NCBI GenBank assembly: GCA_018715935.1
Contig: DVKR01000040.1
Coordinates: 1 to 64,000 of the forward strand
Source: Candidatus Aphodovivens excrementavium
GTDB taxonomy: Bacteria; Actinomycetota; Coriobacteriia; Coriobacteriales; Eggerthellaceae
DNA: 64,000 bases
Direction: 5' to 3'
Shown here: positions 2,461 to 51,929 of the stretch, in pieces
How the letters are laid out: every line of letters starts with the position of its first letter
How positions within the stretch are numbered: position 1 is the stretch's first letter
Program-made: the position numbers and the translations under genes
The notes under the pieces: generated by a model
Databases searched by the model: none
What the model was told of the DNA's origin: nothing
Seen by the model: only the letters and a program-made list of their open reading frames with translations

Positions 2461-3915
2461 CTAGTTGATTGCGGGCTTGCCGCGGCAGATGACCACCGTC
2501 AGCGCCGCCGAAACGCACAGCACCACGGCCACGCAGCCGAACATCGTGAGGTATGACCCGGTGGCGTCGATGAGCGTCCCCAAAATCAAAGCGGCCATCA
2601 CGTTGCTAACGGCCGACACGATGGAAATCTTCGAATAGATGACCGCGTATTCGGCGTCGCCAAAGCTTCTGCGCGCCAGAATCGGCAGCATTACGTTCGT
2701 CACGCCGTAATACAGGCCGAACCCGCCGGCGCCTATGTAGTAGCCGATCATCGACTCCGCGCAGAACGAGAACAAAGCCAGCCCCGTCAGGCCGCAGCAC
2801 AGCGCCACGATAACCGTCGCGGCGGGACGCTTTTCCCCAACGGAGCCCGCGCCGAGCTTGAAGATCGTCTGTCCCGCCATGGCAACCGAACCGGCCGTAG
2901 CGCCCAGCAGCGGAAACACGATGCCGATGTCGAGCGTCGAAGCGTAGCTGGGAATCATGATGTAAACGTACATGCCGAAATTCAGGCAGAACCCCAGCGC
3001 GGCCAAGCAGTAGAAAACGGGCATCTTGAAGGCTTGGGACGCCGGAATGCCGGTTATCTGCACGGTGACGGCGTCGCGCGCGGCGGCGGCCTGCGCGGCG
3101 GCTGGGGCGGCTGGCGCGGTTGGCGCGGCGGCGTTGGCCGAAGCTGGTGTGGCCTCGACTAACGCGGATGCCCCTCTCGCGGCAGCTTCTCCGCTGGCAG
3201 CTTCTCCGCTGACGGCCCCTCTCGCGGCGACCCCTCCGCTGGCGGCCCCCTTCGCAGCTGCAGCTTCCCCACCTTCGGCGGCCACGCTAGCGGGCGGCTT
3301 GGCACCGCACGGCAGCAGCCCTTTGTCCTGCGGCCTGCTCGCCACCAGGAAAAGCGTCACCGGCAGCGTGCACGCCACCAAAACCGCGAAGACTCGATAG
3401 GTGGCCGACCACCCAATCGCTTCGATAAGAACGCCGCCAACCGAGGACCACACGACGCCGCCCACGCCTGTGAACGCCATAATCACGCCCAGGAAGAAGC
3501 CGGCGCGCCTCACAAACCAACGATTCATCAGGGTAGACGGCGCAAGATAAAGCAGCGACCCAACTCCGATGCCCATAATGAAGCCGCCAACGTAGAACTG
3601 CCACAGCGACGCCGTGAACGAAAGCCACACGAACGCAACCACCATCGCGCCCACCGACAGCGAAAGGCACACGCGCGCGTCGCCTTTGTCGAGCAGCTTG
3701 CCCATAAACGGCAGCGACACCATGGTGGATATCCACAGAAACGAGATGTAGTAGCTCGTCATGCCCTTCTCGATGCCCAGCTCATCGGCAATGTAGGGGT
3801 AAAAAATACCCGAGCAGCTAATCGCGAACGAAAGAGGAATGAAGCTAGTGATCACCAACGCGGCAACAACGCAGTAGCCAAAATGGACGCGCGGCGTGCG
3901 ACCCCCTGCAACCAT
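2461..3915 (-). CDS. MFS transporter, OFA-like, with Ala-rich loop
   Basis: A 484-aa major facilitator with twelve predicted membrane segments in two groups of six. The first half ends in a SRPQDKGLLPCGAKPP segment, like the corresponding loop in oxalate:formate-antiporter-type carriers. The central cytoplasmic loop (about residues 205-290) is almost entirely Ala, Gly, Glu and Ser and is encoded partly by five in-frame 15-bp repeats at 3181-3255; that is far longer than usual for the family. The start at 3915 has GAGGGG seven bases upstream. The substrate is probably a small carboxylate by family analogy, not shown by the sequence. It is convergent with the AbrB-like gene and not in an obvious operon. 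Confidence 0.85.
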   Translation of the reverse strand: MVAGGRTPRVHFGYCVVAALVITSFIPLSFAISCSGIFYPYIADELGIEKGMTSYYISFLWISTMVSLPFMGKLLDKGDARVCLSLSVGAMVVAFVWLSFTASLWQFYVGGFIMGIGVGSLLYLAPSTLMNRWFVRRAGFFLGVIMAFTGVGGVVWSSVGGVLIEAIGWSATYRVFAVLVACTLPVTLFLVASRPQDKGLLPCGAKPPASVAAEGGEAAAAKGAASGGVAARGAVSGEAASGEAAARGASALVEATPASANAAAPTAPAAPAAAQAAAARDAVTVQITGIPASQAFKMPVFYCLAALGFCLNFGMYVYIMIPSYASTLDIGIVFPLLGATAGSVAMAGQTIFKLGAGSVGEKRPAATVIVALCCGLTGLALFSFCAESMIGYYIGAGGFGLYYGVTNVMLPILARRSFGDAEYAVIYSKISIVSAVSNVMAALILGTLIDATGSYLTMFGCVAVVLCVSAALTVVICRGKPAIN

Positions 3916-11393: not shown

Positions 11394-14300
11394 TTATCGC
11401 CTCCCTTTGACCCGGCAGACGGCAAGAGCGGAAGCTGCGAGCATGCCGATCAAAGCGGCGGCGGCGAAAGGAACGGTTCCGCTGTCGGATGTGGCAGACA
11501 GGCCGTCACTGCCGCCGGTCTGCTCTTCAGGCGTCTGAGGAGCGGGGTCGGGCTCGGGGTCGGGGTCGGGAGTGGGAGTGGGCTCGGGCTCGGGCTCCGG
11601 CTCCGGGGACTCCTCCCACTGGGCGTAGAGCGTCACCGACCCCCCGGCCTCGGCCAGGTCCTCCTCGAGGGCGGCGCCGGGCTGGTAGGACGCGCCGCTG
11701 CCGTCGGGCGCGGTGTTCCAGCCGGCGAACACGTAGCCCCCGCGCTCGAAGCCGCAGGGATCGAGGGATTCGGCCAGCCCGATCTCGACGCGCTGCGGAT
11801 CCATCTCGCCCTCGCCGCCGTTGGCGTCGAAGACCACGGTGTAGTAGTCGCGCTCCCACTGGGCGTAGAGCGTGACCCGCCCGCCGTCCTCCTGCGTGAG
11901 GTTCTCGGCGACCGTCGCCCCGTCCGCGAACTGCTCCCCGCTGCCGTCGGCCTCCGTGTTCCACCCGAGGAAGTGGAAGCCCTCCAGGCCGAACGGGCAC
12001 GGCATGAGCGCCTGCTCCTGGTCGTGGAAGAACTTCTGGTCGAGCACCTCGTCGGGATCCACCGTCCCCGCCCCGTTCGGGTCGAAATGCACGAAATAGG
12101 GCCAGGGGGTCCACTGGGCGTAGAGGGCCACTTCATCGCCCTGCACTGTCGTGAGGTCCTGCACTTGCTCGCCGTCGGCGTAGAGGGTGCCCGTCCACCC
12201 GGGGGTCGTCGTCCATCCCGCGAAGTCGTAGCCCTCGCGCGAGAACCCGTTGGCGAACAGGCCCTGGGGCTCGCCGTAGACCATGTCTTGGGACTCCATG
12301 CCGCCGATGGCGTCGTCCGCGTTGGCGTCGAAGACGACCGTGTAGACGTTGGCGGCGGGGTGGGCCTGCAGGACCGCCGGGCCGTTCAGCGTGATGGTCT
12401 GATCAGCAACCGAAGGATCCCAGCTGGGCACGACACCGCCGGCCGTCCAGCCCTCGAAGGAGTAGCCGGCCTCCACGGAGGCGCCGATCCCGATCTTATC
12501 ACCGGCGAGTCGCTTGGTAATGCGGTCGACGTGCTCCCCAGTTGCGGGATCGACAATCCAGGCGCTCGCGTGGTCATCGGCCTCCACCTCCACGGTGAAG
12601 TACTCGAGCGAGAGCATGCCGAAGCCGCCCACTATCTCAATCTCGGCGTCCCTGGTGTCCCAACCGTCGATGGACACGGTGTATGAGCCGTCGGGCACGG
12701 AAAGCCCGCCCGTCGTCGTCGCGTAGACGCCATCGCATCCCGTCCGGTTGAAGGGGGCATAGGAGGTCTCGCCGTTCGTCAGCGTGATGCTCAGAGAATC
12801 CAAATCCACACCCCTACCGTTGTCGGTGATGGTGACGTAGGCCACCCCCTCCTCGGCGATGACCGCGTTCAGGCTCACCTCTCCGCTCGCAAGCGTCCCG
12901 TCGTCCTTCAGCCCGCAGAGGTTGACGACCTCGGAGCCGTAGGCGTAGAAGGACCCGAGGCCGAGCCCCTCCCACCCGACGATCGTCTCGTTGTCGGGGA
13001 TCGCATCGTTCCAGACGAGCGCGACCGGCTTGTCGAAGGAGGCCGATATCGGCGCCGTCTGAGAACCCATGGTCAGCTTGATGCTGTACGTCAGCGGCGT
13101 CCACTGGGCGTAGAGCGTCACGGTGGCGCCGTCTTCCTCGGACAAGCCCGAGACTTCTACGGCGTCTTCGTAGGGAGCGCCCGACCCGTCGGCCTTGGTG
13201 TTCCACCTGGCGAACGAGTAGCCGGGCAGGGAGTACCCGACATGGGGCAGCTCCGCCGCGCCGGCGAGCGGCACCGTGATCGCGTCCATGCTCCCGGAGA
13301 CCCGCGTGCTTGCCGAGGACGGCACGTTGGCGTCGAAGACCACCTCGTAGGAGGGCTCATGCCACCAGGCGTGGAGGGTCGTCTCACCCTGGCGCACCCA
13401 CCGCCCGTCCCCGTCGGTGTAGCCCTCCACGCCGTTCACGAGGCTGCCGTCGGCGTTGGCGACCAGCTTGGCGTCCTGGCTATCCGGGTCGGCCGCGGTG
13501 CCGTAGCCGATGAGCGTCCACCCGTCCGGGCCGGTCGGCGCCGCCACGTTGAAGAGCGTCGCGGCGTAGGAGCGCGCGTAGGCCGAGCCGTCGGCGCCGC
13601 CCTCGGTGGCCTTGAGCACGACGTTGGGGGATTTGCTCAAGGTTCCGCCCTTGCCGGCGTCCACCTTGCCGGTGTAGATGGCGCTGCCCGAGTCCACGGC
13701 GCTCGTCACCGAGTTGCCGGAGTGAATCCACGGGTAGACCTGGTTGCCGATCGTGCGGACGTCGTTGGCGCCGTAGGGCACGTCGGCATGGGAGGAGCCC
13801 GAGAGGTCGATGCCGGCCACGCGGGTGCCGTCGGCGGCGCCGGCGAGCGCCACGGTGGTCTTGCTGACCGCATTGCCCCACTTGTCCACGGGGTTGGTAA
13901 CCTTGTTGGCGTTTATCGATCCTCCGGTGATGATGGTGGTGCATCCGGAGGAGCTGTTGTAGTCTCCGATATCCCGGTGATTATCGATGCCTTTGGCGGT
14001 AATGGTTCCGCCGGATATCGTGATGGTGGTTTCATGCTTGTCGTACTGACTGACGTAAGTGCTCTTGATGGTCCCGATACCGATCTTTCCAGTTGCGTTC
14101 ACGGTGCCGCCGGAAATGACTATGTTCGTCCAGACCTTCTCTACTTTTCCATCCTTGTAGCTGCAGTAAAAGTAGCCGCCTATGCCCGCGCTTTCGCTAG
14201 ATTTGACGATATTGTTGCCTTTGCCGCCGATGGCGGTGATGTCTCCGCCCGAAATATTGATATCCGTAGCGCCGGAGCTTGATCCGCCGGATCCGATGCC

Positions 14301-15371
14301 GCTGCCATCGCCACTTCCTTCAGCATAGACCGTCCCTCCGGTGATATATATGCCCCGCGCGTTGCCATCGCCGCCTGAACCAATTCCAGCGCCATCGGAA
14401 ACAGTGGCTTTGGCGGTTACGTTGCCTCCGTTTATGCGGATGTTCTCACCGCTGGCAATCCAATCCGCCGGGCCTTCATAGGACCTACCACCGCCGATTC
14501 CCGCGCCGCCTTCTTCTCCTGTGGCGGTAACGGTACCACCGTTTATCGTGATGTCCTTGCCGTTGCAGCCCCAACCGCCGCCGATTCCCGCGCCGCCGCC
14601 ATCCCCCTTGGCTTCCACGATTCCGCCGTTGATCGTGATGTTCTGAGCGTGCCCGCGGCAGCCTCCGCCGATACCGGCGGCACCATTGCCTCCCTGGGCT
14701 ACGACCTTGCCGCTGTTGAACTCGATGTTCCCGGTGGTTCCGGAGAAAGTGAACATGAGAACATAGACCGATCCGATGCCCGCGCTGCCGCTCGAGTGGC
14801 TCGCATGCGCGGTTATGGTGCCCGGGTTGTCAGGATCCTCGGTCTCGAACACGAGCTTTGTCTGCGTACCGTCCTTGCGTATAGCCGGGCAGAGTAGGTA
14901 GCTGCCAAAGTAGGAGCTGGAACCGGACTCTGAGACAAGCTTCACGGTGCTGTTCTTATTCTCTGCGATCTCGATGGCGGCCGTGCGTACGCCTATGTTC
15001 GCCTTGATGCTGGGATCTATGCTGAGACCATCCGCCAGCTTGACCGTAACCGTCTGTCCCTCCGGGGCGGAAATCACCACCCTGACATTGGTGCTCTGCC
15101 CGACAAGACGGTACTCTCCCGCCTTGTCGATGTGAACGGTGGTGTTCCACCCGGCTTTTGAGACGTCCACGGTGTCGCCGGGGTTCGGACGCCAGTTGTG
15201 CCAAGCACCCCCAACTCCCGATCCGTCGAGATCCCCCTCAAGCGCATCGGCCGCCGTCCCGCCGCCTTCATCGGCAAACGACATCGGCGCGGCTAAGCAC
15301 AGCGCGACCACCAGAGCGGCGAGAAAAGCCATCGCCAGAGACGCCACAATCCTAATCGACTTCGAACGCAT
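11394..15371 (-). CDS. Large surface protein with InlB-type repeats
   Basis: A protein of about 1325 aa; the frame opens further upstream (15440), but MRSKSIRIVASLAMAF at 15371 begins a clean signal peptide (cleavage near SFADEGG) with GGAG eight bases before it. Residues about 100-430 contain many GGAGIGGG-type repeats alternating with ITINGGTVTATG-type strands, a beta-helix-like carbohydrate-binding pattern. Four InlB/Listeria-Bacteroides repeats (VVFDAN, GYxFAGWNT, VTLYAQW) lie at about 675-760 and 1010-1270. A Pro/Glu/Asp spacer precedes LSATSDSG, a hydrophobic helix and a VKGRR tail: a degenerate sorting signal. A TATAAT box flanked by inverted repeats precedes it, and a membrane LuxR regulator gene lies immediately upstream in the same direction. 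Role probably adhesion or glycan binding. Confidence 0.8.
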   Translation of the reverse strand: MRSKSIRIVASLAMAFLAALVVALCLAAPMSFADEGGGTAADALEGDLDGSGVGGAWHNWRPNPGDTVDVSKAGWNTTVHIDKAGEYRLVGQSTNVRVVISAPEGQTVTVKLADGLSIDPSIKANIGVRTAAIEIAENKNSTVKLVSESGSSSYFGSYLLCPAIRKDGTQTKLVFETEDPDNPGTITAHASHSSGSAGIGSVYVLMFTFSGTTGNIEFNSGKVVAQGGNGAAGIGGGCRGHAQNITINGGIVEAKGDGGGAGIGGGWGCNGKDITINGGTVTATGEEGGAGIGGGRSYEGPADWIASGENIRINGGNVTAKATVSDGAGIGSGGDGNARGIYITGGTVYAEGSGDGSGIGSGGSSSGATDINISGGDITAIGGKGNNIVKSSESAGIGGYFYCSYKDGKVEKVWTNIVISGGTVNATGKIGIGTIKSTYVSQYDKHETTITISGGTITAKGIDNHRDIGDYNSSSGCTTIITGGSINANKVTNPVDKWGNAVSKTTVALAGAADGTRVAGIDLSGSSHADVPYGANDVRTIGNQVYPWIHSGNSVTSAVDSGSAIYTGKVDAGKGGTLSKSPNVVLKATEGGADGSAYARSYAATLFNVAAPTGPDGWTLIGYGTAADPDSQDAKLVANADGSLVNGVEGYTDGDGRWVRQGETTLHAWWHEPSYEVVFDANVPSSASTRVSGSMDAITVPLAGAAELPHVGYSLPGYSFARWNTKADGSGAPYEDAVEVSGLSEEDGATVTLYAQWTPLTYSIKLTMGSQTAPISASFDKPVALVWNDAIPDNETIVGWEGLGLGSFYAYGSEVVNLCGLKDDGTLASGEVSLNAVIAEEGVAYVTITDNGRGVDLDSLSITLTNGETSYAPFNRTGCDGVYATTTGGLSVPDGSYTVSIDGWDTRDAEIEIVGGFGMLSLEYFTVEVEADDHASAWIVDPATGEHVDRITKRLAGDKIGIGASVEAGYSFEGWTAGGVVPSWDPSVADQTITLNGPAVLQAHPAANVYTVVFDANADDAIGGMESQDMVYGEPQGLFANGFSREGYDFAGWTTTPGWTGTLYADGEQVQDLTTVQGDEVALYAQWTPWPYFVHFDPNGAGTVDPDEVLDQKFFHDQEQALMPCPFGLEGFHFLGWNTEADGSGEQFADGATVAENLTQEDGGRVTLYAQWERDYYTVVFDANGGEGEMDPQRVEIGLAESLDPCGFERGGYVFAGWNTAPDGSGASYQPGAALEEDLAEAGGSVTLYAQWEESPEPEPEPEPTPTPDPDPEPDPAPQTPEEQTGGSDGLSATSDSGTVPFAAAALIGMLAASALAVCRVKGRR

Positions 15372-15429
15372 CGCGATTCTCCAATCCCCCGGGCCGCTGA
15401 AACCCCTGAACCGGGACGTCGATGAGCCA

Positions 15430-15472
15430 GTTGAAACCATAGGGCAATTATACGAAGGCGCTTGGTTTCAAC
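15430..15472 (-). promoter_or_regulatory. Promoter with flanking inverted operator arms
   Basis: A consensus TATAAT (15447-15452, minus strand) sits between perfect 10-bp inverted arms GTTGAAACCA (15430-15439) and TGGTTTCAAC (15463-15472), centres 33 bp apart. The upstream arm covers the -35 area, where no good hexamer is seen, suggesting activator dependence. The LuxR-type protein encoded just upstream is an obvious candidate binder. Confidence 0.5.
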
Positions 15473-37710: not shown

Positions 37711-38307
37711 TTACGCGGGCTGAAACGTGTCTTTGTCGGGAGCAAAGGAGCGCATTGCCTGTATGGTGCGGTCGAACAGCTCATCGAGCTCCCAACCGCA
37801 CAGTTCCGCGCCCTTTCGGATAACATCGCGCGAGCATCCCGCAGCAAATCGCTTGTCTTTGAACTTTTTCTTGAGCGACTTCACCTCGAAGTCCATCACG
37901 CTTTTCGACGGGCGCATGACCACCGCCGCGCCGATAAGTCCTGTCAGCTCGTCTACGGCAAACAACACCTTTTCCATGAACATCTCAGGCTTAGGACACG
38001 CCTCGTTGAAATCTGAATTGTGCGTTTGGATCGAGCGGATCAGCTGATCGGTTCCGCCTGCTGCATGCAGCATTTCCGCCGCGCGCAGCGTATGGTCTTC
38101 AGGCGTGGGAAATTCTTCCCAATCGAGATCGTGCAACAGGCCAACAAGCCCCCAGAACTCCACGTTTTCTGGGTCGAATTCCTGCGCAAAGTAACGCAGG
38201 CAGCCTTCTACCGTCTCTGCGTGTTCGATGTGAAACGGATCCTTGTTGTGTTCGTTGAGCAGCCCAAACGCCTGATCGCGCGTAAGCCCCGCCTCCAATG
38301 TTGCCAT
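37711..38307 (-). CDS. HD-domain protein
   Basis: A 198-aa soluble HD hydrolase. HIEHAETVEGC (near 26) and LLHDLDWEEFP (near 54-64) give the histidines and the HD pair that bind metal; HTLRAAEML near 70 and an IQTHNSDF near 93 continue the fold. Such proteins hydrolyse phosphate esters of nucleotides, but several act on unknown substrates. The start at 38307 (MATLEAG) has GGAAAGGGG upstream; the open frame extends 15 more residues without a site. No operon partner: the exporter gene upstream is separated by a repeat-bearing gap. Confidence 0.8.
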   Translation of the reverse strand: MATLEAGLTRDQAFGLLNEHNKDPFHIEHAETVEGCLRYFAQEFDPENVEFWGLVGLLHDLDWEEFPTPEDHTLRAAEMLHAAGGTDQLIRSIQTHNSDFNEACPKPEMFMEKVLFAVDELTGLIGAAVVMRPSKSVMDFEVKSLKKKFKDKRFAAGCSRDVIRKGAELCGWELDELFDRTIQAMRSFAPDKDTFQPA

Positions 38308-38338
38308 GATGCCCCTTTCCTGCACGAACCTTCTTATC

Positions 38339-38457
38339 TTTTCGCAGCGCACGCTGGTCTTTTCGCAACACGCGCTGACATCTGTTCAACGCACTCCGGT
38401 CCAAACGGCACGCCCATGCCCAATGGCACACTCATGCCCAGCGGCACGCTCGTTTCC
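38339..38457. repeat. Two short tandem arrays in exporter 3' flank
   Basis: Two 21-bp units (CTTTTCGCAGCGCACGCTGG type) at about 38339-38380, and three 18-bp units (AACGGCACGCCCATGCCC, AATGGCACACTCATGCCC, AGCGGCACGCTCGTTTCC) at 38404-38457. The arrays lie 20 bases beyond the stop of the heavy-metal exporter. Confidence 0.72.
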
Positions 38458-38476: not shown

Positions 38477-39472
38477 CTAAAACACGATGCCGAACGCGTT
38501 GCCGACAAGCCCCCAAGCAACGCCGGTCACATACAGCAGCACAATAATCGCAATCGTTTGCCTGAGCGGACGGTTGGCGCGCAGCAGCACGAGCAAGCCC
38601 ACGCCGGCAGATACCAGCAGGCCGGCCATCATGGCGCCGGCGCCCAGCACGCCTTCGAGGTACAGTTGCGCGATAGCAACGCTTGCCGCGCAGTTGGGGA
38701 TAAGCCCCACAAGCGCCGATGTCAGCACCGACAATACCGTATTGCTGCCAAGGAACGACGCCAGCGCGTCTTCGCCCACCACTTCAAGCACGTAGTTCAG
38801 CGCGAACGTTATCAAAAACACAAACACGCCCACCTGCACGGTGTGAATGAGCGCGCTTTTAAGGATGCTTTTCCAGCCGTGGCTATGATCGTGGTCGTGC
38901 TCATGCGCGTGATGCTCGTGCGAGCACCCTGCCGCGCAATCGTCATGGTGCTGATACACCAGTTCAGGATTGCTCTCGCACGTTGCGCACTCATTGTTGC
39001 AATGGCATCGGTCCTGCTCGCACAGCTCATGGATGCGCAGCTTTTGCTTGTCGCGACGCGCAAGGCGCAGCACCGTATCCACGATAAAGCCCATGATCAT
39101 GCCAATAAGAAGTTTGGCTCCCAAGATTTTGGCAATGGTTTCAACGGGAACCTGCTCCGCAATGAAGATAGGGAGCATTTCGTCTGACGTGGAAAGAAAC
39201 ACCGCAAACAGCGTACCCAGCGTTACCACCCTGCCTGCGTAGAGCGTTGCTGCCGCAGCTGAGAAGCCGCATTGCGGCACCACGCCCAACACGGCACCCA
39301 CAATAGGGCCGGCGGCGCCTGCATGCTGAATGGCCTCTTGGGTTTTTCCCGCCGTCCGATGCTCCAGCCATTCCATCGCCACGTAGGTGAGAAGCAGGAA
39401 CGGAATAAGGTAGAGCGTGTCGGACACCGAATGTTCGAGCGTATGTTGCAGTATGTGCACAAATTCTTCCAT
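38477..39472 (-). CDS. Putative heavy-metal exporter (ArsP_2-like)
   Basis: A 331-aa membrane protein with eight to ten hydrophobic segments in two homologous halves: VGAVLGVVPQCGFSAAAATL near 55 and LVGLIPNCAASVAIAQLYLE near 255 each carry a conserved Pro-x-Cys. The cytoplasmic loop between them (about 140-205) is loaded with metal-binding residues, including CEQDRCHCNNECATC and HEHHAHEHDHDHSHG. This layout fits the putative 10TM heavy-metal exporter family (DUF2899/ArsP_2). The likely job is efflux of arsenic-type or divalent metals; the ion is not fixed by sequence. No ArsR-type regulator is adjacent. Confidence 0.78.
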   Translation of the reverse strand: MEEFVHILQHTLEHSVSDTLYLIPFLLLTYVAMEWLEHRTAGKTQEAIQHAGAAGPIVGAVLGVVPQCGFSAAAATLYAGRVVTLGTLFAVFLSTSDEMLPIFIAEQVPVETIAKILGAKLLIGMIMGFIVDTVLRLARRDKQKLRIHELCEQDRCHCNNECATCESNPELVYQHHDDCAAGCSHEHHAHEHDHDHSHGWKSILKSALIHTVQVGVFVFLITFALNYVLEVVGEDALASFLGSNTVLSVLTSALVGLIPNCAASVAIAQLYLEGVLGAGAMMAGLLVSAGVGLLVLLRANRPLRQTIAIIVLLYVTGVAWGLVGNAFGIVF

Positions 39473-40424: not shown

Positions 40425-43400
40425 TTATCGACGATTGCCGCCTCGCTTTGCGCGGCGCATGAGCACCAACGCCGTCAGGCAGGCTGCAAGAGCCACCAGC
40501 AGCACGGCTCCCGCGCCCATGAGCACGCCTGATGCCGCATCGCCGGTATCGGCAAGCGCCTTCAAATTGGAGCCGCCGCCCTTTCCGCTGCTGCCGGTAG
40601 GCTGATTGGCGCCTTGGCCTGCATTGCCGCTACCTGAGCCGTTGCCGCCCTGTCCGGCGTCGCCATTGCCGGATCCGTCGCCGCTGCCCGTGCCGTCGCC
40701 GGGGTTGCCGGGATCGGCACCCGGATCGTTCGGATTGTCCGGATCGGTGCCAGGATTATCGGGGTCTGCCGTCTTAACGTTAATCTGCACATCAACATAA
40801 AGCGGCTCGTAGTTTGCCGTATCCGTAGGCGCGAACACTGCGCGATAGACCCCCGCTTCGTTCACGACGCCCGCAGTGTCTACCCAGCTCCACGTGCCGG
40901 TTACCGGCGTTCCGTCTGCCATGACCACCGTCGCGCCAACAAGCGCCACGTCAGCCAGCTTCGTGCCCGCCGCAACTTCGGCAGGGTCGGCAGCAAGACC
41001 CGTCTGCGACAGCATCGCCTTTGAGATCACGATGCCGGCGGGATACTCCTTCTCGAACGGCGCGTAGTCGCTGGATCCCTCATAGACAAACTTCACATCG
41101 TAGGAGCCTACGCTTACGGGTGCGCCGCTCGACCACGGATTGGAGCCCGAACGATAGAGCACCTGCACCTTTGCCTGCTCGGATGCAGGGAAGCTCTGGC
41201 CGTATGCCGGGACGGCGGGAACTGCCGCGCCGGTGTAGGCCACCGCAATACCGGCAAACGAGATGTCGGCATCAGAGCTGATATCCGCAAGCCACTTCGC
41301 GTAGAGCGTAACAGCCGAATCAAACGCGGTGGCAGCAATGCCCGCCGCAGGGTCGGCGTCCTCGGCGAACACGACTGGCTGGGCGAGGTCCTCATCGAGG
41401 TACCATCCTGCCAATTCGTAGCCGTCGAGCGCCAGGGTGGGAACGTCGCCCTCGCTGAGCGTTCCGCCCGTGGGCACTTCTACCGTCGTCGTATGGGAGC
41501 CGCCCTCAAAGACGCCTTCGCCTGCGTTAAGCGTAAGCTCCACCGTGTCGTCGGCAGCAAGCTCCCACTGCGCGTAGTACGTGCTTGCGCCCGCCGTCTG
41601 GTACGTGGTGCCTGCCGTCACCTGCTCGCCGCCCTGAGCCGATGTGAACCAGCCCTTGAACGTGTAGCCGTCGCGTGTTGGTACGGGCAGCGCGGGAAGC
41701 GCCGCGTCGTAGGTGGCGGTCACCGTTGTCGTTCCCATTCCATCGTCGAATACGCCGCCCTGGGCGTTAAGCGTCACCGCATACGTCTTCGGAGTCCACG
41801 CCGCCGTGACGGTTATGTCTGCAGACACCGGCGTGTCCGTGGTAAACGGGGTTCCTTCTGCCGTCATCCACCCGGCAAAACCGTAGCCGACGCGGCTTGC
41901 CGTTGGCAGGCTCGCCAGCGTGCCGCCGGCAGTTACCGTCTCAGTGCCAGGATGGCCACCGTCAAGCGCGCCCCCGTTGGCATCGAACGTCACCGTGTAC
42001 TGCTGCGTCGGCGGCGTGCTGCCTCCCTCCCAGGTCATCACGTAGGGGCTGAACCCAGAGGAAGGAACATGGAAGCTTACGTATCCATCGGCGACGGCGC
42101 TCGTGTCAAGCGTCACCGACTCAACCTCGCTTTTCGCAATGAGGTCACTCACCTCTTGGTCGCTTGCGCTGTAGTCGCGATGAAGTCCGGCGAAGTGATA
42201 CACCTTAATGCTTTCCGCATCCGCACCTTCGGGGATCTTCCAGAACACCGTGGTGCCCTCAGATGAGCTTACCCATGCGTTCGACTGCTTCTGATCAACA
42301 AGGTCGAGGTATTGGAAGTCGTAGTTCGAGCCGACCGTACCTGCACCCAGCTCGCTGTTGGCGTGATCGATAAGCTCCTGCTCTCGCTGGCCCGGCAGCA
42401 GTTCATCGGAGAACAGCGTCACGCCCGACGCGTCTGCCAGCGGCACATCGACGTTGCCGTTGAAGTAGATTGTCGTGTCTTCGGGCAGCGCTGCCGCCAC
42501 GCCGCCCTCCGTCTCAAGCGCCCCCTCGATGGCAGCGGGGCTGCTGGCATCCACCAGCGGGACGTTCAGCTCGCCGCTCTCTGCGGCCTCGGCATCGGAC
42601 ACGCTGCGGATAACCAGCTGGGAGGGCTCAAGCGCGAACGTGTAGCGATGCTCGTTAACCGTTACGTCGACCGACCCCTCGGCGTCGCTCTCATCACCTG
42701 CCGTGCGCGTTTGCGCGCCCTCCACCGTCAAGTCGACACGTGCGGTGTATCTACCCGGCTGGGTGTCGTCTTCGATGGCCTCGCCATTTTCGTTGTAGTA
42801 GCGCACCTGCGCCGTCGTTCCCTCGTCAAGCAGCTCGTTAAGTTCGGCGATGGTGTAGGCGTTGCCTTGACCGTCGATCACGTACTGATCGGCGAAGTGG
42901 TCACCGGTGCTGCTCGTGCCTCCCACGTATTTCTCGACAGCTGCGGGACGCAGCGTCAGGCACGTGATCTCATAGGTGAATGCCGTCTGCTGGCCTTCTG
43001 CAAGCTTCCACGATTTCGCCTCACTGTCGTAAGTCAGCGTGAACGTCTCCCTGCCGTCTTCGTCGCTCTTCGCGAAGTAATGCGTGCCATAGGCGGGATC
43101 GCCCATTTCGGCATATGCATCGAGGTAGTTCTGAGCATCCATCGCCACCTCGACGGTCCACGTGCCGTCGGTGCCCTTTACGGGCTGTTCCACCGTGAAG
43201 CTGTCTGCGATGAGCGGCTCGCCGTCTGCGCCGCCAAACGTCACATCGGGATGCGCATTGCTTCCTTCGCTTCCGTTGATTTCGTTCACGCCTGCAAGCT
43301 CAACGGAAACGGCGTCGCCAAGCTGCTCTGCTACGTATTCCGACGTGGGCGCGGCGGGGTCAACGTCGCCAGCGTCTACCGACCACCGCGCGCTTACCAC

Positions 43401-46400
43401 TATCGACTCGTCAACAGCCGTAAGGGCTTCAAAATCGGCTTCGTCAGCATCGACCCAGCCAAGGAACTGGTGCCCATCCCACTCCACCGTGGGTAGTCCG
43501 CCCCAGCTGTTAAGGCATTGATTTGCAGGCAGGATCACCTGGCTGTTGCCCTTTGTGAAGACAGCTCCCTCTGCCTCATCGGCGCCATCGATGCCGTCGT
43601 TATCGTCGAACGTCACCTTGACAATGGTCGCCGTCGAAAGATCGCTGTCCTCGTGATTCTCGTCGCCGGCACCCCAGGCGTAGTAGGTGCCCTCCGCACT
43701 CACCTCAAAACGTTTGTTCTCCGCCTCCTGCGGATCGCTCCTATCGTCGCTCTCGCTCCAATAATAGATATCGGAGTTGCCGTTCTGGAGAATCACCTCT
43801 ATAGTGCCGGGGGCTTCGCCCTCGCTGTAGCGGATGTCGGGCGCTGTCGCCTTTGCCTTGGCAATGACCACACCGCTCTCGAATACCTGCTCGAAGGCGT
43901 TGTAGTCGCCGTCGGCCGCACGTGTCACACGTACGTCGTAGCTGCCGGCGTTCACCGGGACGTCAATTGACCAAGCAGCATCATCTGAAGAGTCTGCCGA
44001 CCGATACTCCACCGTGAATCCTTCGATGTCGTCACTCGGTAGCGTTGTGAAAGCGAAGGGTCTGCCGGTGCCGTCATACACATAAGCCGTATTGCCGGCA
44101 TCGGGATTCACCGAAACGTCCTGCAACGGCGACTCGCAAACGCCCTGGAACGTCACGGGCGTGGCAGCGGGATCCTCAAGCGCCCAACCTGCCGACACGG
44201 GAACCTCGGCAGAGGGATCGCCGTCCCTCCACACGAGCGTCACCGTCTTAGAAGCATCGCCCGACACCGTATGAGTACCCGCTTCGAGGCCAAGAGCCTT
44301 GTCGAATGCTGCCACGTACGGCGCTGCTTGGATCGTTACGTCAACCATCCAGACCTTCTCAGCCTTCGCCAAGCCGAAGAACTGCGCAGCGCTCTCGATC
44401 AAGCCCTCGGCGGGAACGTCCTCGGAATACACCTCGTCGATAGCGTACGCATCGTTCTGCCCCTCGCTGTTGGCGATCAGCGTATCGAAAGTCTGCGCGA
44501 CATGCTCAGAGGCCATCGCCTCGTTGGCATCGGACACCTGCACGTCGAGCAGCGCGTTCACGTCGTCAACCGTCACCTCGGGACGCATCTTGCACACGAC
44601 GTCGCGCTCCACAGTCACATCGGTGGGTTCGCCATCGACGTACAGCGTAGCAGTCACCTTCACGGCGCCCGCCGCAAGTTTGGTGAGCTCGCCCGTTTCT
44701 TCATCGATCGTCGCCACGGTGTTGTCATCCACCGAGTACTTGAACGAGACGCGGCTGTCGTAAACCGGGCTGGAGAAGCCCTTGCTGGCTTCATACGTTG
44801 CGGAAGCGGTGCCCTCGTCCAGCACCTCGAGGCCTTCGATCGTCGGGTTGACGGCAATCACCTCGACCTCCGCCGAGAGGCTGGGATTGGAATCTGACGT
44901 AGCCGTAATGTTCGCTCCGCCTGTCTGATGCACCGACACGATGCCCTGCCCCGCGTTCGCGGAAACCGTCGCGGTCTGCTCGTTGTCGGACGCCCAGCTG
45001 ATACCGTTGTCGAAGGCATTCGCCGGCGTAGTGTAACCGTTCAGGCGCAGCGTACGGGCTTCGCTCTGACGCATATCCACGACGCGCGTCGCGTCACCGT
45101 CGATGACCACACTCTCGACGGGGTTGTTCTGGATGGTGCGCGTCGGCCCGTAGACGATCACCTGGCCGCCGCCCGTGATACCCGACCCCGTCGGCGCGCT
45201 CTTGCCGTTGCCGTAGATCCAGTACTTGCCGAACACCGTGCTGGTGCCGCCGGGCAGCTCGCCCTGCATGTAGTCGCCGTCTTGTGAGTAGTGCCTGCTC
45301 GACATCTGCGCAGCAGGAAGCGATGCGATGTCCTCCACCGACGCAGCGCCCACCGCACCGTCCACCCGGTAGATGCCGTCAGAGGCGCCCCAGCCGTTCG
45401 ACGCGACATACCCAATGGAGACATCCTTGTAGTTCTGAGTAGAAACGCTGCCCACATACGGCGTCACACCGCCGATGTTCACGTTGCCGTTGTTGTCGGC
45501 GAGGATATGCACGTTGGAGCCGCTGCCCGTCTGGATGCTCACGCCGTTGTACGGCACGATGGTTCCGCCCGTGATATACGCATTCGCGCCGTCAAACTGG
45601 ATGGGATACGTGGTGTTGTCGGCCACGTTCTGATGCTCGAACGTGCCGCCGTTCACGTAAAGCGTACCCTGCGTCCACAGGCTGTTGATCGTGCCGCCGT
45701 TGACCGTCACCTCACTCGAGGCGTTCGCGACGTCCACGGCGAGATGGTGGTTGTTCTTCAGGCTGTAGGTGCCGTCGTTGATGGTGAGCTTCGTGCCCGT
45801 CACGCCGGTCGCGAACACCGCCGCCTCGGAACCCCAGTACATTCCCGAACTGCCGAGAATAGCCGTGCCGTTGTTGCCGGCGAACTTAACGGCAACGCCT
45901 TCGTTGTTACCACCCGTGCCGTACTCAGTGCGCAGCGAAACGCCGCCCGTGGTGATGAGCGTTGAGTTCGCCCCGATTTCGACAGGGTTGAGCGCGTCAT
46001 ATAATGACCCCTGCGCACGCGTGTCGTTAACGTACACCGAGTCCTTCAGCACGAGCGTCGCGCCGTTCTGAACATGGAAGCGGCAGGACTTCAGCTCTCC
46101 TGAGCCGCCGACCACCAGGTCGCGGTTCACGTAGATCTCACGGTTGCCGTCGTCGAACAGACCACCCTCGTCGAACTCAAAGGAGCCCTGCGTAATGATC
46201 GTGCCCACCGACGAGTCGTTCACCGCGGCGGTGAAGTCATCGGCGTTCCCTACCGTCACCGTGCGCTTCTCCGCCGTGCCCTTCAGCACGTTGAGCATCT
46301 TCTCAGCAGCCTCCAGGCGATCGAGGTTGGATACCTGCGCCTGATCCTCGGCGGAAAGCGCGTCGTAGGCGTCGCGCGCCGCCGTGATGGCCGCCTCGTC

Positions 46401-49400
46401 GTCCACCGTGACGTCCTCCGCGTCGGGCAGCGAGGCGATCATGTCCTCAACCTGCTTCCAGGCGGGTACGTCCTCCTCGGCCTTCGAGATCGCGAAGCTG
46501 TCGATGAGCGTCGAGCTGCCGCCGTCAACGCGATACGCCTGGTAGTACAGGTGGTCACCGTCGATAGTGATGCCCGAATACACCGGCACCGACAGGTCAA
46601 GCGCAACCTTGCTGGGGATGTCGGCGGAAGGCGTCTGCACGTAGTTCTTCACGCCTGCCGTACCAGCGATGACGAACGCCGTGCCGTTGGGGTTGAGAGC
46701 CGTCTCGTAGTTGGCGCCCTCGTAAGTCTGCGTCTCCAACGTCACGTCCTGCTCGGCACCGCGAGAAAGGAACGGCGTACGGTTATATACGTGGTCATGC
46801 CCCGAAAGCACGAGGTCAACGTCGCATGCCGCAGCCAAGGCGTCTATCTGCGAACGGATTGTCGCCACATCGCTGTCGGCCTGATGCGGGCCGTTGGAAT
46901 ACGGCGACTTATGCATGAGCACAATTTTCCACTGCGTGTCTGCACCCGCCAGCACGTCATACGCCCAGTCGTACTGCGCCTGCGACAACGACTCGTCGGT
47001 GGCAAGGTCGTTCGTGTTGAGCACCACGAACGTAGCATTTTTGTACACGTAAGAGTAGTACACGCCCGTTGAGAGGTCCTGTCCTTCCGGCACGTTTGCC
47101 AAGTTGAAATGCGACACGATGGGGTTCTCATCGGTAATGCCCTCTACATCGCTTTTCGCTTCGTGATTACCCGCAGCGGGCGTCATCGACATGCCCTGCG
47201 CCACTCCGTCTTCGTCGTCGAGCGCCCAAGTCCAGTAATCCTCGTTGGCCCCATCGTCCACGAAGTCGCCCCCGTGCACCGTGAACGATGCCTCAGGGAA
47301 GGCTGCATCTGCCTGCGCCAATGTGTTCTTATACACGTCGTAGTCGGACTCAACCATGCCCTGTGAGTCGTTCACATTGACGAAGGTGAAGGCGTCGTCG
47401 GCATCCGCTGCGTCACCCGTAGCGAACTGATAGGCGCTGCTCCACCATCCGTTGTCCTTGTTGCCCACGCGATAGTAATATGTGGTGCCGTCGTCCAGCC
47501 CACTCACGGAAACGGAGTGCTTCTCCGCCTGCTGGGTGCCATAGGTAGTAACCAAGCCTAAGTTCAGCTGGGTCTTTGGTTTAGTCACCTGCTCAGAAGA
47601 CGCCTGCACCTCGGCTACGATGTTTTGGAACTGGTCGTCGGTCGCTACCTGCACGGCGCCGCTCGTCACATTCGTCCCCGTATACCAGCGGAAGTTGCGA
47701 TCGGTAACGGGGTTGGTGCCCAATGTCATAGTCACCTGAGTCGGTAAAAGCCCGTTGTCAACCGACGGCTCGGGCGCAGTTGTAGTTCCATCGAACTCGA
47801 CAGTAACTCCCTCGCCGTCGATCACGTCATCAGTAAAGTTGGAATCATAGAGCATCGAGCCAGCGATTTCGGAGATGAGCGAGCCCATGCCGGTGAGGAA
47901 GCTCGGGCTCATGTACTCGTTGATCAACCCTTCTATCATGCTGCGGATGGCAACAGAGTCGAATCCGAACAGTTCCAACGTGCTTTTCAGGTTGCCGTTG
48001 TCGGTCTGGCTGTCGATGGCCGTCTTCCATAAGCCAGAAAACGCGATGCCGGTGTCGATGGAGTTGTCAGCGAGCAACGTGTCGATTATGAGCATGACGT
48101 CATCAATGAGCGTGGCAATGAGCGTTTGAACCACATTCCCCGACTCGATGTAGGCAAGGGCGTCTTCCACCCACGCCGGCGGATTCTCGTGGCCGGCATA
48201 ATGGCCGGTCAGCACAACAAAAACCAAATCGTATATGGTATGCTGCTCGGAATCTAGCGAAGTGATGCCCATGTTCGACACTTGGGTCACAATCTCATCG
48301 ACCTTCCCGAGCAGCCATTCGGGGTCGTCGATATATTTCGTCTCGACCGTGTTCAGCACATCGTCCACCAGGCGCAAAATCTGCGCGTCGGTGATGGTCG
48401 TGTTTCCGATGATGCCGGCAGTGCCAGAAGGCGAAAGCTGGATGCCGCCGTTACGGTACTCGACATGCACGCGTCCGATTCCGGTGCCTAACTCTATCTC
48501 CATACCTCCCGCAAGTGCGTCGCGCACGGCTGAAAGAACCATTGTGTCTATGTCCACATCGGGCAGGTTTTCTGCCAGCCAGGGACGCAGACCCGCTTCG
48601 CCAATCTCCTGAAGCATGGGACGCAACATGCCATTCGCCATGTTGTTGAAGAGAGTTTCGGGATAGAGCTTCTGCTGCGTGTAGCTCTTAAGATCGTCGA
48701 TCTGAGTAACCGCCCCCGTATGGTCTTTGAAACTGATGGCCTTCACGCTCTCGCTGGACACGCTGAACGTCTCGTGCGTGCGTTGCGTGCCGTCGTCAAG
48801 CGCTGCGCCCTTCGTTAAGGTGACAGTACGCACCGGGCTCATCCACGAGGAGAGCGAGCCCGTCTCCAGGTCGGTAATGGTGTTGCCCGCGTTCGACGTG
48901 AACTGCGCCATGTCGTTGGCATGCATGTGGCCGGTGAAGATGTAGCGCATGCCTGCATCAGCGAATTGGGACGCCACGTCGCGCCAATTCTCGACGACGT
49001 ACTCGGAGAGGATGTTCTCCTCGCCGGTGAAGTGAGGAACGAGGCCGTGGTGCATCAGACCAATGACGGTGTCGCCCTCGGCCTCTGCGTTCTTCGTCTG
49101 CTCGACCACCCAGGGCATGAGATCCTCATCCACACGACCTGCGGTCACATGCTCGTTCGTGTCGTAGCCGGTGTGGGCGTCGGGGCTATACATTCCGGAG
49201 TCGATTGCCACAATGGTGTACTTGCCCAGATCGACGGAATACGAAAGGCCGCCCGCCTGCTCGCCGGATGCTGCGTTGGGGTTGGTGAAGTACTGCGCAT
49301 CCCAGTTTCCGTCATAGCCGAAGTTCCGATAGATCTCCTTGAACTCGTCGGGAGTCGTGGTTTCGGCGCTTTCCTTCTTGCCATTCGCGAAAGTGCACGA

Positions 49401-49895
49401 ATCCTGATAGTTGTAGATGTCGTGGTTGCCGTTGATGACGAAGACTTCGGTGTCGGTTTCGTCCTCGATCTTTTGGAACCTCTCGGCCAGCTGCTCGTGG
49501 CCGAGCTTCTCGCCGTCCTTCGTGAGGTCGCCGGAGACCAGCAGCACGTCGGGCTGATCCTGCCTCACCATGTCGAGCGCCGCGTCCAGGATCGAGCCCG
49601 ACTCCTCGAGCATCTTTGGGTCACCACCCACATAGGTGCGATAGTCCTCGCAATCGCTCACATAGTTGAGCGGGTAGTAGTGCGTATCCGACAGAACGGC
49701 AATTCTTACGTCTTCGGCATCGGCGCTAAGCGTCTGCCCGGCGGCATCCGATCCATCTCCCTGCTGCGTTTCCTCATCCGCATACGCGCTCTGGAAGGAA
49801 AGCCCGCCAACGGGCAGCGACAACGCCAGCGTCAAGATGGCAGCCAGCGCCGCGCGAAACCCTCGCATCAGCCCGCCTTCTTCCTGCTCTTTCAT
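40425..49895 (-). CDS. Giant surface protein with two metallophosphoesterase domains
   Basis: A 3156-aa exported protein, about 15% of the window. A signal peptide (residues 10-40) leads to calcineurin-like phosphoesterase 1 with its full ligand set (SDTHYY near 70, SGDLT near 121, NGNHD near 155, MHHGLVPH near 282, TGHMHAND near 320). After a helical linker comes a second unit: FN3-like domain (about 720-830), then purple-acid-phosphatase-type esterase (GGDFVDD near 875, AGNHE near 908, LMHKSPY near 994, SGHDHVYNRTP near 1032). Then a helical segment (1140-1205), beta-helix-like strands (1210-1480), Big-like domains (1600-1770), three InlB repeats (2630-2870), an MBG-like domain, an Asn/Pro/Gly spacer and an ALADTGD tail helix. 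Likely a wall-bound phosphatase or nucleotidase; substrate unknown. Confidence 0.85.
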   Translation of the reverse strand: MKEQEEGGLMRGFRAALAAILTLALSLPVGGLSFQSAYADEETQQGDGSDAAGQTLSADAEDVRIAVLSDTHYYPLNYVSDCEDYRTYVGGDPKMLEESGSILDAALDMVRQDQPDVLLVSGDLTKDGEKLGHEQLAERFQKIEDETDTEVFVINGNHDIYNYQDSCTFANGKKESAETTTPDEFKEIYRNFGYDGNWDAQYFTNPNAASGEQAGGLSYSVDLGKYTIVAIDSGMYSPDAHTGYDTNEHVTAGRVDEDLMPWVVEQTKNAEAEGDTVIGLMHHGLVPHFTGEENILSEYVVENWRDVASQFADAGMRYIFTGHMHANDMAQFTSNAGNTITDLETGSLSSWMSPVRTVTLTKGAALDDGTQRTHETFSVSSESVKAISFKDHTGAVTQIDDLKSYTQQKLYPETLFNNMANGMLRPMLQEIGEAGLRPWLAENLPDVDIDTMVLSAVRDALAGGMEIELGTGIGRVHVEYRNGGIQLSPSGTAGIIGNTTITDAQILRLVDDVLNTVETKYIDDPEWLLGKVDEIVTQVSNMGITSLDSEQHTIYDLVFVVLTGHYAGHENPPAWVEDALAYIESGNVVQTLIATLIDDVMLIIDTLLADNSIDTGIAFSGLWKTAIDSQTDNGNLKSTLELFGFDSVAIRSMIEGLINEYMSPSFLTGMGSLISEIAGSMLYDSNFTDDVIDGEGVTVEFDGTTTAPEPSVDNGLLPTQVTMTLGTNPVTDRNFRWYTGTNVTSGAVQVATDDQFQNIVAEVQASSEQVTKPKTQLNLGLVTTYGTQQAEKHSVSVSGLDDGTTYYYRVGNKDNGWWSSAYQFATGDAADADDAFTFVNVNDSQGMVESDYDVYKNTLAQADAAFPEASFTVHGGDFVDDGANEDYWTWALDDEDGVAQGMSMTPAAGNHEAKSDVEGITDENPIVSHFNLANVPEGQDLSTGVYYSYVYKNATFVVLNTNDLATDESLSQAQYDWAYDVLAGADTQWKIVLMHKSPYSNGPHQADSDVATIRSQIDALAAACDVDLVLSGHDHVYNRTPFLSRGAEQDVTLETQTYEGANYETALNPNGTAFVIAGTAGVKNYVQTPSADIPSKVALDLSVPVYSGITIDGDHLYYQAYRVDGGSSTLIDSFAISKAEEDVPAWKQVEDMIASLPDAEDVTVDDEAAITAARDAYDALSAEDQAQVSNLDRLEAAEKMLNVLKGTAEKRTVTVGNADDFTAAVNDSSVGTIITQGSFEFDEGGLFDDGNREIYVNRDLVVGGSGELKSCRFHVQNGATLVLKDSVYVNDTRAQGSLYDALNPVEIGANSTLITTGGVSLRTEYGTGGNNEGVAVKFAGNNGTAILGSSGMYWGSEAAVFATGVTGTKLTINDGTYSLKNNHHLAVDVANASSEVTVNGGTINSLWTQGTLYVNGGTFEHQNVADNTTYPIQFDGANAYITGGTIVPYNGVSIQTGSGSNVHILADNNGNVNIGGVTPYVGSVSTQNYKDVSIGYVASNGWGASDGIYRVDGAVGAASVEDIASLPAAQMSSRHYSQDGDYMQGELPGGTSTVFGKYWIYGNGKSAPTGSGITGGGQVIVYGPTRTIQNNPVESVVIDGDATRVVDMRQSEARTLRLNGYTTPANAFDNGISWASDNEQTATVSANAGQGIVSVHQTGGANITATSDSNPSLSAEVEVIAVNPTIEGLEVLDEGTASATYEASKGFSSPVYDSRVSFKYSVDDNTVATIDEETGELTKLAAGAVKVTATLYVDGEPTDVTVERDVVCKMRPEVTVDDVNALLDVQVSDANEAMASEHVAQTFDTLIANSEGQNDAYAIDEVYSEDVPAEGLIESAAQFFGLAKAEKVWMVDVTIQAAPYVAAFDKALGLEAGTHTVSGDASKTVTLVWRDGDPSAEVPVSAGWALEDPAATPVTFQGVCESPLQDVSVNPDAGNTAYVYDGTGRPFAFTTLPSDDIEGFTVEYRSADSSDDAAWSIDVPVNAGSYDVRVTRAADGDYNAFEQVFESGVVIAKAKATAPDIRYSEGEAPGTIEVILQNGNSDIYYWSESDDRSDPQEAENKRFEVSAEGTYYAWGAGDENHEDSDLSTATIVKVTFDDNDGIDGADEAEGAVFTKGNSQVILPANQCLNSWGGLPTVEWDGHQFLGWVDADEADFEALTAVDESIVVSARWSVDAGDVDPAAPTSEYVAEQLGDAVSVELAGVNEINGSEGSNAHPDVTFGGADGEPLIADSFTVEQPVKGTDGTWTVEVAMDAQNYLDAYAEMGDPAYGTHYFAKSDEDGRETFTLTYDSEAKSWKLAEGQQTAFTYEITCLTLRPAAVEKYVGGTSSTGDHFADQYVIDGQGNAYTIAELNELLDEGTTAQVRYYNENGEAIEDDTQPGRYTARVDLTVEGAQTRTAGDESDAEGSVDVTVNEHRYTFALEPSQLVIRSVSDAEAAESGELNVPLVDASSPAAIEGALETEGGVAAALPEDTTIYFNGNVDVPLADASGVTLFSDELLPGQREQELIDHANSELGAGTVGSNYDFQYLDLVDQKQSNAWVSSSEGTTVFWKIPEGADAESIKVYHFAGLHRDYSASDQEVSDLIAKSEVESVTLDTSAVADGYVSFHVPSSGFSPYVMTWEGGSTPPTQQYTVTFDANGGALDGGHPGTETVTAGGTLASLPTASRVGYGFAGWMTAEGTPFTTDTPVSADITVTAAWTPKTYAVTLNAQGGVFDDGMGTTTVTATYDAALPALPVPTRDGYTFKGWFTSAQGGEQVTAGTTYQTAGASTYYAQWELAADDTVELTLNAGEGVFEGGSHTTTVEVPTGGTLSEGDVPTLALDGYELAGWYLDEDLAQPVVFAEDADPAAGIAATAFDSAVTLYAKWLADISSDADISFAGIAVAYTGAAVPAVPAYGQSFPASEQAKVQVLYRSGSNPWSSGAPVSVGSYDVKFVYEGSSDYAPFEKEYPAGIVISKAMLSQTGLAADPAEVAAGTKLADVALVGATVVMADGTPVTGTWSWVDTAGVVNEAGVYRAVFAPTDTANYEPLYVDVQINVKTADPDNPGTDPDNPNDPGADPGNPGDGTGSGDGSGNGDAGQGGNGSGSGNAGQGANQPTGSSGKGGGSNLKALADTGDAASGVLMGAGAVLLVALAACLTALVLMRRAKRGGNRR

Positions 49896-50285: not shown

Positions 50286-51929
<1,644 letters not shown>

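Follow-up and report, generated by a model that had tools for sequence, protein, structure and literature searches.

A 3156-residue surface protein of Candidatus Aphodovivens carrying two metallophosphoesterase domains of different subclasses

The window analyzed here (64,000 nucleotides of contig DVKR01000040.1, from Candidatus Aphodovivens excrementavium, assembly GCA_018715935.1) contains a gene for a very large surface protein in which two metallophosphoesterase (MPE) domains, one of the Lmo2642 type (D1) and one resembling the purple acid phosphatases (D2, preceded by an FN3-like domain), are joined by a conserved spacer and followed by a long modular tail (Table 1). Judged from the sequences compared, the order of D1, spacer, FN3-D2 and tail modules is real, conserved and so far undescribed, and both MPE sites are maintained under purifying selection, D2 most strictly. 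Our leading reading, held tentatively and with slightly less than even confidence, is that this is a surface-displayed two-step phosphoester hydrolase, with D1 acting as a diesterase and then D2 as a monoesterase in the serial scavenging of phosphate and nucleotides.

Table 1. Features of the dual-MPE gene and its product, in window coordinates
Feature	Residues	Position	Strand	Evidence
Whole gene, surface protein with two MPE domains	3156 aa	40425..49895	-	ORF and translation; same order in homologues
N-terminal export signal, end AYA-D	~1-39	49779..49895	-	Sequence read directly
D1, Lmo2642-type metallophosphoesterase	62-360	48816..49712	-	PF00149; 2xmo match; fold; invariant ligands
Conserved, mostly helical spacer	345-715	47751..48863	-	57-85% identity; 2xmo alignment reaches ~residue 560
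FN3-like N-terminal domain, purple acid phosphatase type	718-826	47418..47744	-	PF16656 (Pur_ac_phosph_N), 7.2e-15
D2, PAP-like MPE with D-x-Q first motif	831-1115	46551..47405	-	PF00149, 1.1e-13; motifs; dN/dS
Gly/Asn-rich repeat region, probable parallel beta-helix	1180-1560	45216..46358	-	Sequence pattern; sub-threshold PF20585
Big_2 (bacterial Ig-like), best stretch; second stretch nearby	1614-1677	44865..45056	-	Pfam
InlB/List_Bact repeats	~2647-2855	41331..41957	-	PF09479, three stretches, 1e-32; internalin B structures matched
LADTG-D motif, hydrophobic stretch and basic tail	3114-3156	40428..40556	-	Sequence read directly

Two phosphoesterase domains on one chain

Pfam finds on the chain two Metallophos stretches (8.4e-26), Pur_ac_phosph_N, Big_2 in two stretches and three List_Bact/InlB repeats. 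The two Metallophos domains show no significant similarity to each other (BLASTP E 0.5), which rules out a recent internal duplication, and each keeps invariant ligands, upholding the claim of an earlier sequence-only reading that two different, intact MPEs lie on one protein of 3156 aa. The Big and InlB modules that it named were likewise recovered; the MBG modules that it also listed were not, as Pfam gave none at E <= 1.

D1 had been described as a complete phosphoesterase, and it does carry the complete binuclear MPE set (D-x-H, GD, GNHD, H and GHxH), with the ligands D70, H72, D123, N157, H158, H282/H283, H323 and H325 present in 14/14 aligned D1 sequences. It matches Lmo2642 (2xmo) over the full domain, both by sequence (1.2e-32) and by profile (8.2e-40), and a model of the tandem region fits 2xmo (Z 27.1, 3.4 Å, 315 residues aligned, model residues 14-518) with the C-terminal domain included in the shared fold. 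The D1 model fits the glycerophosphodiesterase GpdQ (Z 16.9) and SMPDL3A (Z 16.3) too. The AlphaFold model of the tandem region is weak overall (mean pLDDT 57, D2 worst), and for that reason ligand geometry was not taken from it.

The spacer is 57-85% identical over its whole length among eight homologues and is therefore a domain, not a linker. Because the 2xmo alignment extends to model residue 518 (~residue 560), its first part appears to correspond to the C-terminal domain of Lmo2642; a match for this part came only from the model that included D1, the spacer modelled alone gave no PDB match, and the remainder beyond ~residue 560 gave none either.

D2 matches kidney-bean purple acid phosphatase (PAP; 1.4e-10), and wheat PAP phytase 6git is among its profile matches. 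The earlier description of a "purple-acid-phosphatase-type" esterase with a full ligand set holds for the FN3-like N-terminal domain and for the superfamily ligands of the MPE that follows it (GD, GNHE, H and GHxH), of which D843, D877, N910, H911, H995, H1033 and H1035 are present in 12/12 tandem proteins. It does not hold for the two features that would make this a PAP proper: the D-x-G first motif is replaced by D-x-Q (D-S-Q here and in close homologues), and the metal-binding Tyr, three residues on from the GD Asp, is absent, the sequence GDFVD placing an Asp there. That Tyr is the source of the purple colour in purple acid phosphatases. Nearly every D2 relative with a readable motif (these are mostly from Lachnospiraceae) also has D-x-Q without the Tyr, and Tyr-bearing (GDxxY) PAP-like proteins occur elsewhere in the phylum (L053, L055-L057). 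D2 thus falls into a side branch of bacterial proteins marked by D-x-Q, and it should not be called purple; on its motifs it is FN3-PAP-like, not a true purple acid phosphatase. Since the metal-1 site has neither its usual His nor the PAP Tyr, its chemistry is uncertain; human CPPED1, an active phosphatase, likewise has a D-x-Q motif. This Tyr-less branch is widespread in Lachnospiraceae (21/120 genomes gave a match) and apparently uncharacterised, and its metal chemistry merits a structure. In a 1645-aa protein (L080/L099; G444:C1:130565-132634), a pair of D2-type MPE domains, both with D-x-Q, occurs in tandem.

Selection on the parts of the chain was estimated by Nei-Gojobori dN/dS in three comparisons (with Aphodovivens, a Coriobacteriaceae MAG and Enorma), which gave 0.15-0.18 for D1, 0.12-0.23 for the spacer, 0.24-0.34 for the tail and 0.07-0.12 for D2 (0.07, 0.09 and 0.12). 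D2, with the lowest values, is the most conserved part and so is unlikely to be dead; ligand conservation and dN/dS together rule out a degenerate D2. Ligand loss was looked for on alignment, and none of the named D1 or D2 residues was lost in the tandem proteins, including the three of the 12 that are only 23-50% identical by region. The same results bear on the proposal that the protein is simply an adhesin, one of whose MPE domains has been reduced to a vestigial binding module, as the large repeat tail and the unusual D2 metal-1 site (D-x-Q, no Tyr) might suggest. We regard this as very improbable: the D-x-Q site is common to nearly all bacterial relatives, all other ligands stay invariant even at that low identity, and no part of the chain has a lower dN/dS than the supposedly vestigial candidate.

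Gene, export signal and tail

The minus-strand ORF is a real, open and correctly placed gene, and AAGAGGTGGGGA, a ribosome-binding-like sequence, precedes its ATG. The protein has the signal peptide, C-terminal motif, hydrophobic stretch and basic tail of a sortase-anchored wall protein, as far as these can be read from its residues. The "tail anchor" of the sequence-only reading can be retained as a sorting-signal-like tail, with the qualification that its motif is LADTG-D, not LPXTG. The source genome (2.08 Mb, 98.95% complete) has a single Pfam sortase match, a PF04203 gene on the minus strand (L040; G000:C2:32665-33168) that best resembles class B sortases (126 bits, under the model's cut-off, from a partial sequence), whereas the dual-MPE tail reads LADTG.

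The beta-helix proposed earlier has the expected sequence pattern, but Pectate_lyase_5 (PF20585) reaches the repeat region only below threshold (E 0.13; E 7e-4 in a homologue, scoring 20.1 bits where the cut-off is 24.3), and we retain it as probable. Elsewhere in the window (11394-15440, minus strand) lies a second large repeat protein, of 1348 aa, with a beta-helix (PF18889) and three InlB-type repeats.

Distribution and gene neighborhood

The tandem core (signal, D1, spacer, FN3-D2, repeat region and Big_2) recurs sparsely in Eggerthellaceae, Coriobacteriaceae, Lachnospiraceae and Oscillospiraceae: it was found in 8/395 genomes of the order (Coriobacteriales) and 2/348 of the Dorea family, and the full-length tandem in 1/300 of the Pseudoflavonifractor family, five others of which have D1 alone. 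From D1 through Big_2, the parts form one chain in two phyla, Actinomycetota and Bacillota. Over the core, Aphodovivens and Aveggerthella are 84-85% identical to the window protein, Enorma and a Coriobacteriaceae MAG 74-76%, and Dorea, Pseudoflavonifractor and Enterenecus 61-63%. Transfer between the phyla is suggested by identities of 60-63% and by Bacillota copies that are closer than some same-order copies. The D1 tree has an unresolved fork joining the tandem groups, single-MPE relatives and divergent Coriobacteriia copies. A phage or plasmid origin is not supported: neither plasmids (best match 42% coverage, < 60% identity) nor viral contigs gave a full-length match to the dual-MPE protein.

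The homologues have the core, repeat region and Big_2 in common (the repeat region is 39-51% conserved in Bacillota copies) but differ in their C-terminal halves and in how they are attached. Coriobacteriia tails are mostly of the LxxTGD type (LADTG, LASTG, LSSTG, LVQTG, LAETG), one copy has a tail that looks SLH-like, and the Bacillota copies lack a tail anchor. Two Lachnospiraceae loci, those of Dorea (L018:15427-17340) and L044 (10892-12834), have three small conserved genes after the dual-MPE gene, encoding a membrane protein, a secreted protein similar to the C-terminus of the MPE protein, and a protein with an xKTGD anchor. None matched a Pfam family above cut-off; together they may provide a separate surface attachment for the enzyme.

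The locus found in the window is also present in the same-genus genome G001 and in record DVIW01000010, the genus being the one represented by Candidatus Aphodovivens avistercoris. A gene for a GroEL-like chaperonin lies directly upstream in each genus member (window 50286-51920, minus strand; L015:7548-9182), which shows that both have the locus at the same site. Downstream in the window, also on the minus strand, are genes for an arsenic efflux protein (38477-39472; NF037962, 2.7e-104) and an HDIG-domain protein (37711-38352). Among the neighbors of the dual-MPE gene, none was recognized as serving the uptake of nucleosides or phosphate.

The Dorea phocaeensis locus also encodes, a few genes further downstream, a 722-aa protein with a strong Mac-1/IdeS-type cysteine protease domain (L018:17516-19684; PF09028, 7.1e-71). 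This neighbor, the surface location of the dual-MPE protein and the action on c-di-AMP of EecP, itself a wall-anchored enzyme with two MPEs (PMC13229355), could all be taken to favor an immune-facing role, in which, by analogy with what has been proposed for EecP, CdnP and SntA, the pair would degrade extracellular cyclic dinucleotides or nucleotide danger signals and so dampen host sensing. We think such a role improbable, since neither domain has the base-binding 5_nucleotid_C partner of those enzymes, the carriers appear commensal, and the protease neighbor was seen only in Dorea, with no such ORF after the shared small genes in L044.

Proposed function and comparison with known systems

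In the serial scheme that we prefer, D1, as an Lmo2642-like binuclear metallophosphodiesterase, would open extracellular phosphodiesters (most likely cyclic or linear nucleotides), and D2, as a bacterial D-x-Q FN3-PAP-like phosphomonoesterase, would remove the phosphate from the D1 product, yielding free phosphate together with a nucleoside or alcohol that the cell could take up. The enzyme pair would be held away from the membrane by the tail and by the repeat and Ig modules. We infer catalytic activity, substrates, serial action and sortase anchoring. The scheme draws on the likeness of D1, with its invariant metal ligands, to a cyclic-nucleotide phosphodiesterase and of D2, the part under the strongest purifying selection, to plant PAPs, on the conserved one-chain order, and on the precedent of YfkN and EecP as two-MPE wall enzymes of similar logic. 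The 5'-nucleotidase-type domain PF02872 was found neither in the protein nor in the genome, whose other PF00149 proteins (SbcD, SbcD/YhaO-like and YfcE-like) look cytosolic; the dual-MPE chain is therefore the only exported MPE found there. Against the scheme stand the likeness of D1 to GpdQ and SMPDL3A, the odd D2 metal-1 site and the lack of an identified uptake-gene neighbor. MPEs are also promiscuous, which counts against reading the substrates of this scheme from sequence.

Several of these points could also be assembled into a different account, in which the two domains have separate dietary or host substrates and the chain is a nutrient-harvesting surface "platform" with no pathway: D2 would be a phytate, phosphosugar or phosphoprotein phosphatase, as the wheat phytase match hints, and D1 a glycerophospho- or phospholipid-headgroup diesterase, in keeping with the GpdQ and SMPDL3A fits, in bacteria several of which are, by their names, from the poultry gut. 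We consider this rather unlikely, since Lmo2642 is by a wide margin the closest relative of D1, the Tyr that defines plant PAPs is missing from D2, and the fixed order of D1 and D2 on one chain suggests a linked role. An extended form of the serial reading would see here an undescribed two-enzyme class of two gut phyla that converts signalling nucleotides (cyclic dinucleotides or cyclic mononucleotides) fully to nucleoside and phosphate outside the cell, with a fixed hand-over from D1 to D2 arranged by the conserved helical spacer, and so alters nucleotide sensing by the host or the community; we hold this to be decidedly improbable.

Matches to two anti-phage phosphoesterase families, DS9_1 (NCBIfam NF053862; 43.9 bits against a curated cut-off of 420) and DS8 (far under its cut-off), were set aside as generic MPE matches. 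The literature search, which had most subscription journals outside its reach, found no paper describing the D1-spacer-FN3-D2 architecture. The sequence-only reading had stated that no characterised protein has this order, and in the literature searched that is so for the exact order; the principle of a wall protein with two MPEs is not new, as YfkN and EecP are both characterised. YfkN of B. subtilis is a trifunctional nucleotide phosphoesterase with an LPDTA sorting signal (PMC3222306), and it resembles the present protein in being large and surface-anchored, with two MPE units in series that combine diesterase and monoesterase activities in YfkN (PMC3222306, PMC13229355). Both of its units, however, are MP-NT with 5_nucleotid_C, whereas here D1 is Lmo2642-like, D2 is FN3-PAP-like and PF02872 is absent. 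EecP of E. faecalis, a wall-anchored c-di-AMP phosphodiesterase, shares the signal peptide, two catalytic units (duplicated MP-NT units in EecP) and C-terminal sorting motif (PMC13229355), but its MP-NT pairs are ~24% identical to each other, whereas the MPEs here are of different subclasses and are followed by an Ig/InlB tail. Set against the YfkN/EecP/CpdB type as a whole, the protein has two MPEs on one chain predicted to be exported and anchored, and lacks the PF02872 domain after each.

Lmo2642 is described as a cyclic nucleotide phosphodiesterase in the title of a paper that PMC4320098 and PMC3407115 cite, and it has been listed with surface binding proteins and lipoproteins (PMC2679221). 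It resembles D1 and the first part of the spacer in sequence and modelled fold, and differs in being a protein of 443 residues with a single MPE and no wall tail. In the kidney-bean and wheat PAPs (1kbp, 6git), as in FN3-D2, an MPE with the motifs GD, GNHE, H and GHDH comes after an FN3-like N-domain, but they have D-x-G and the metal-binding Tyr where D2 has D-S-Q and Asp, and D2 is not expected to be purple. By its description, BF1_0032 (BBPR_1505) of the gut actinobacterium Bifidobacterium bifidum is similar: this sortase-dependent "metallophosphoesterase" of 1597 aa is predicted to be anchored in the wall through a signal, LSQTG, that departs from LPXTG (PMC8603203). If the serial reading is right, YfkN and EecP would be joined by a third design of wall enzyme with two phosphoesterase steps on one chain, in this case built from unrelated MPE subclasses and conserved in both Actinomycetota and Bacillota of the gut.
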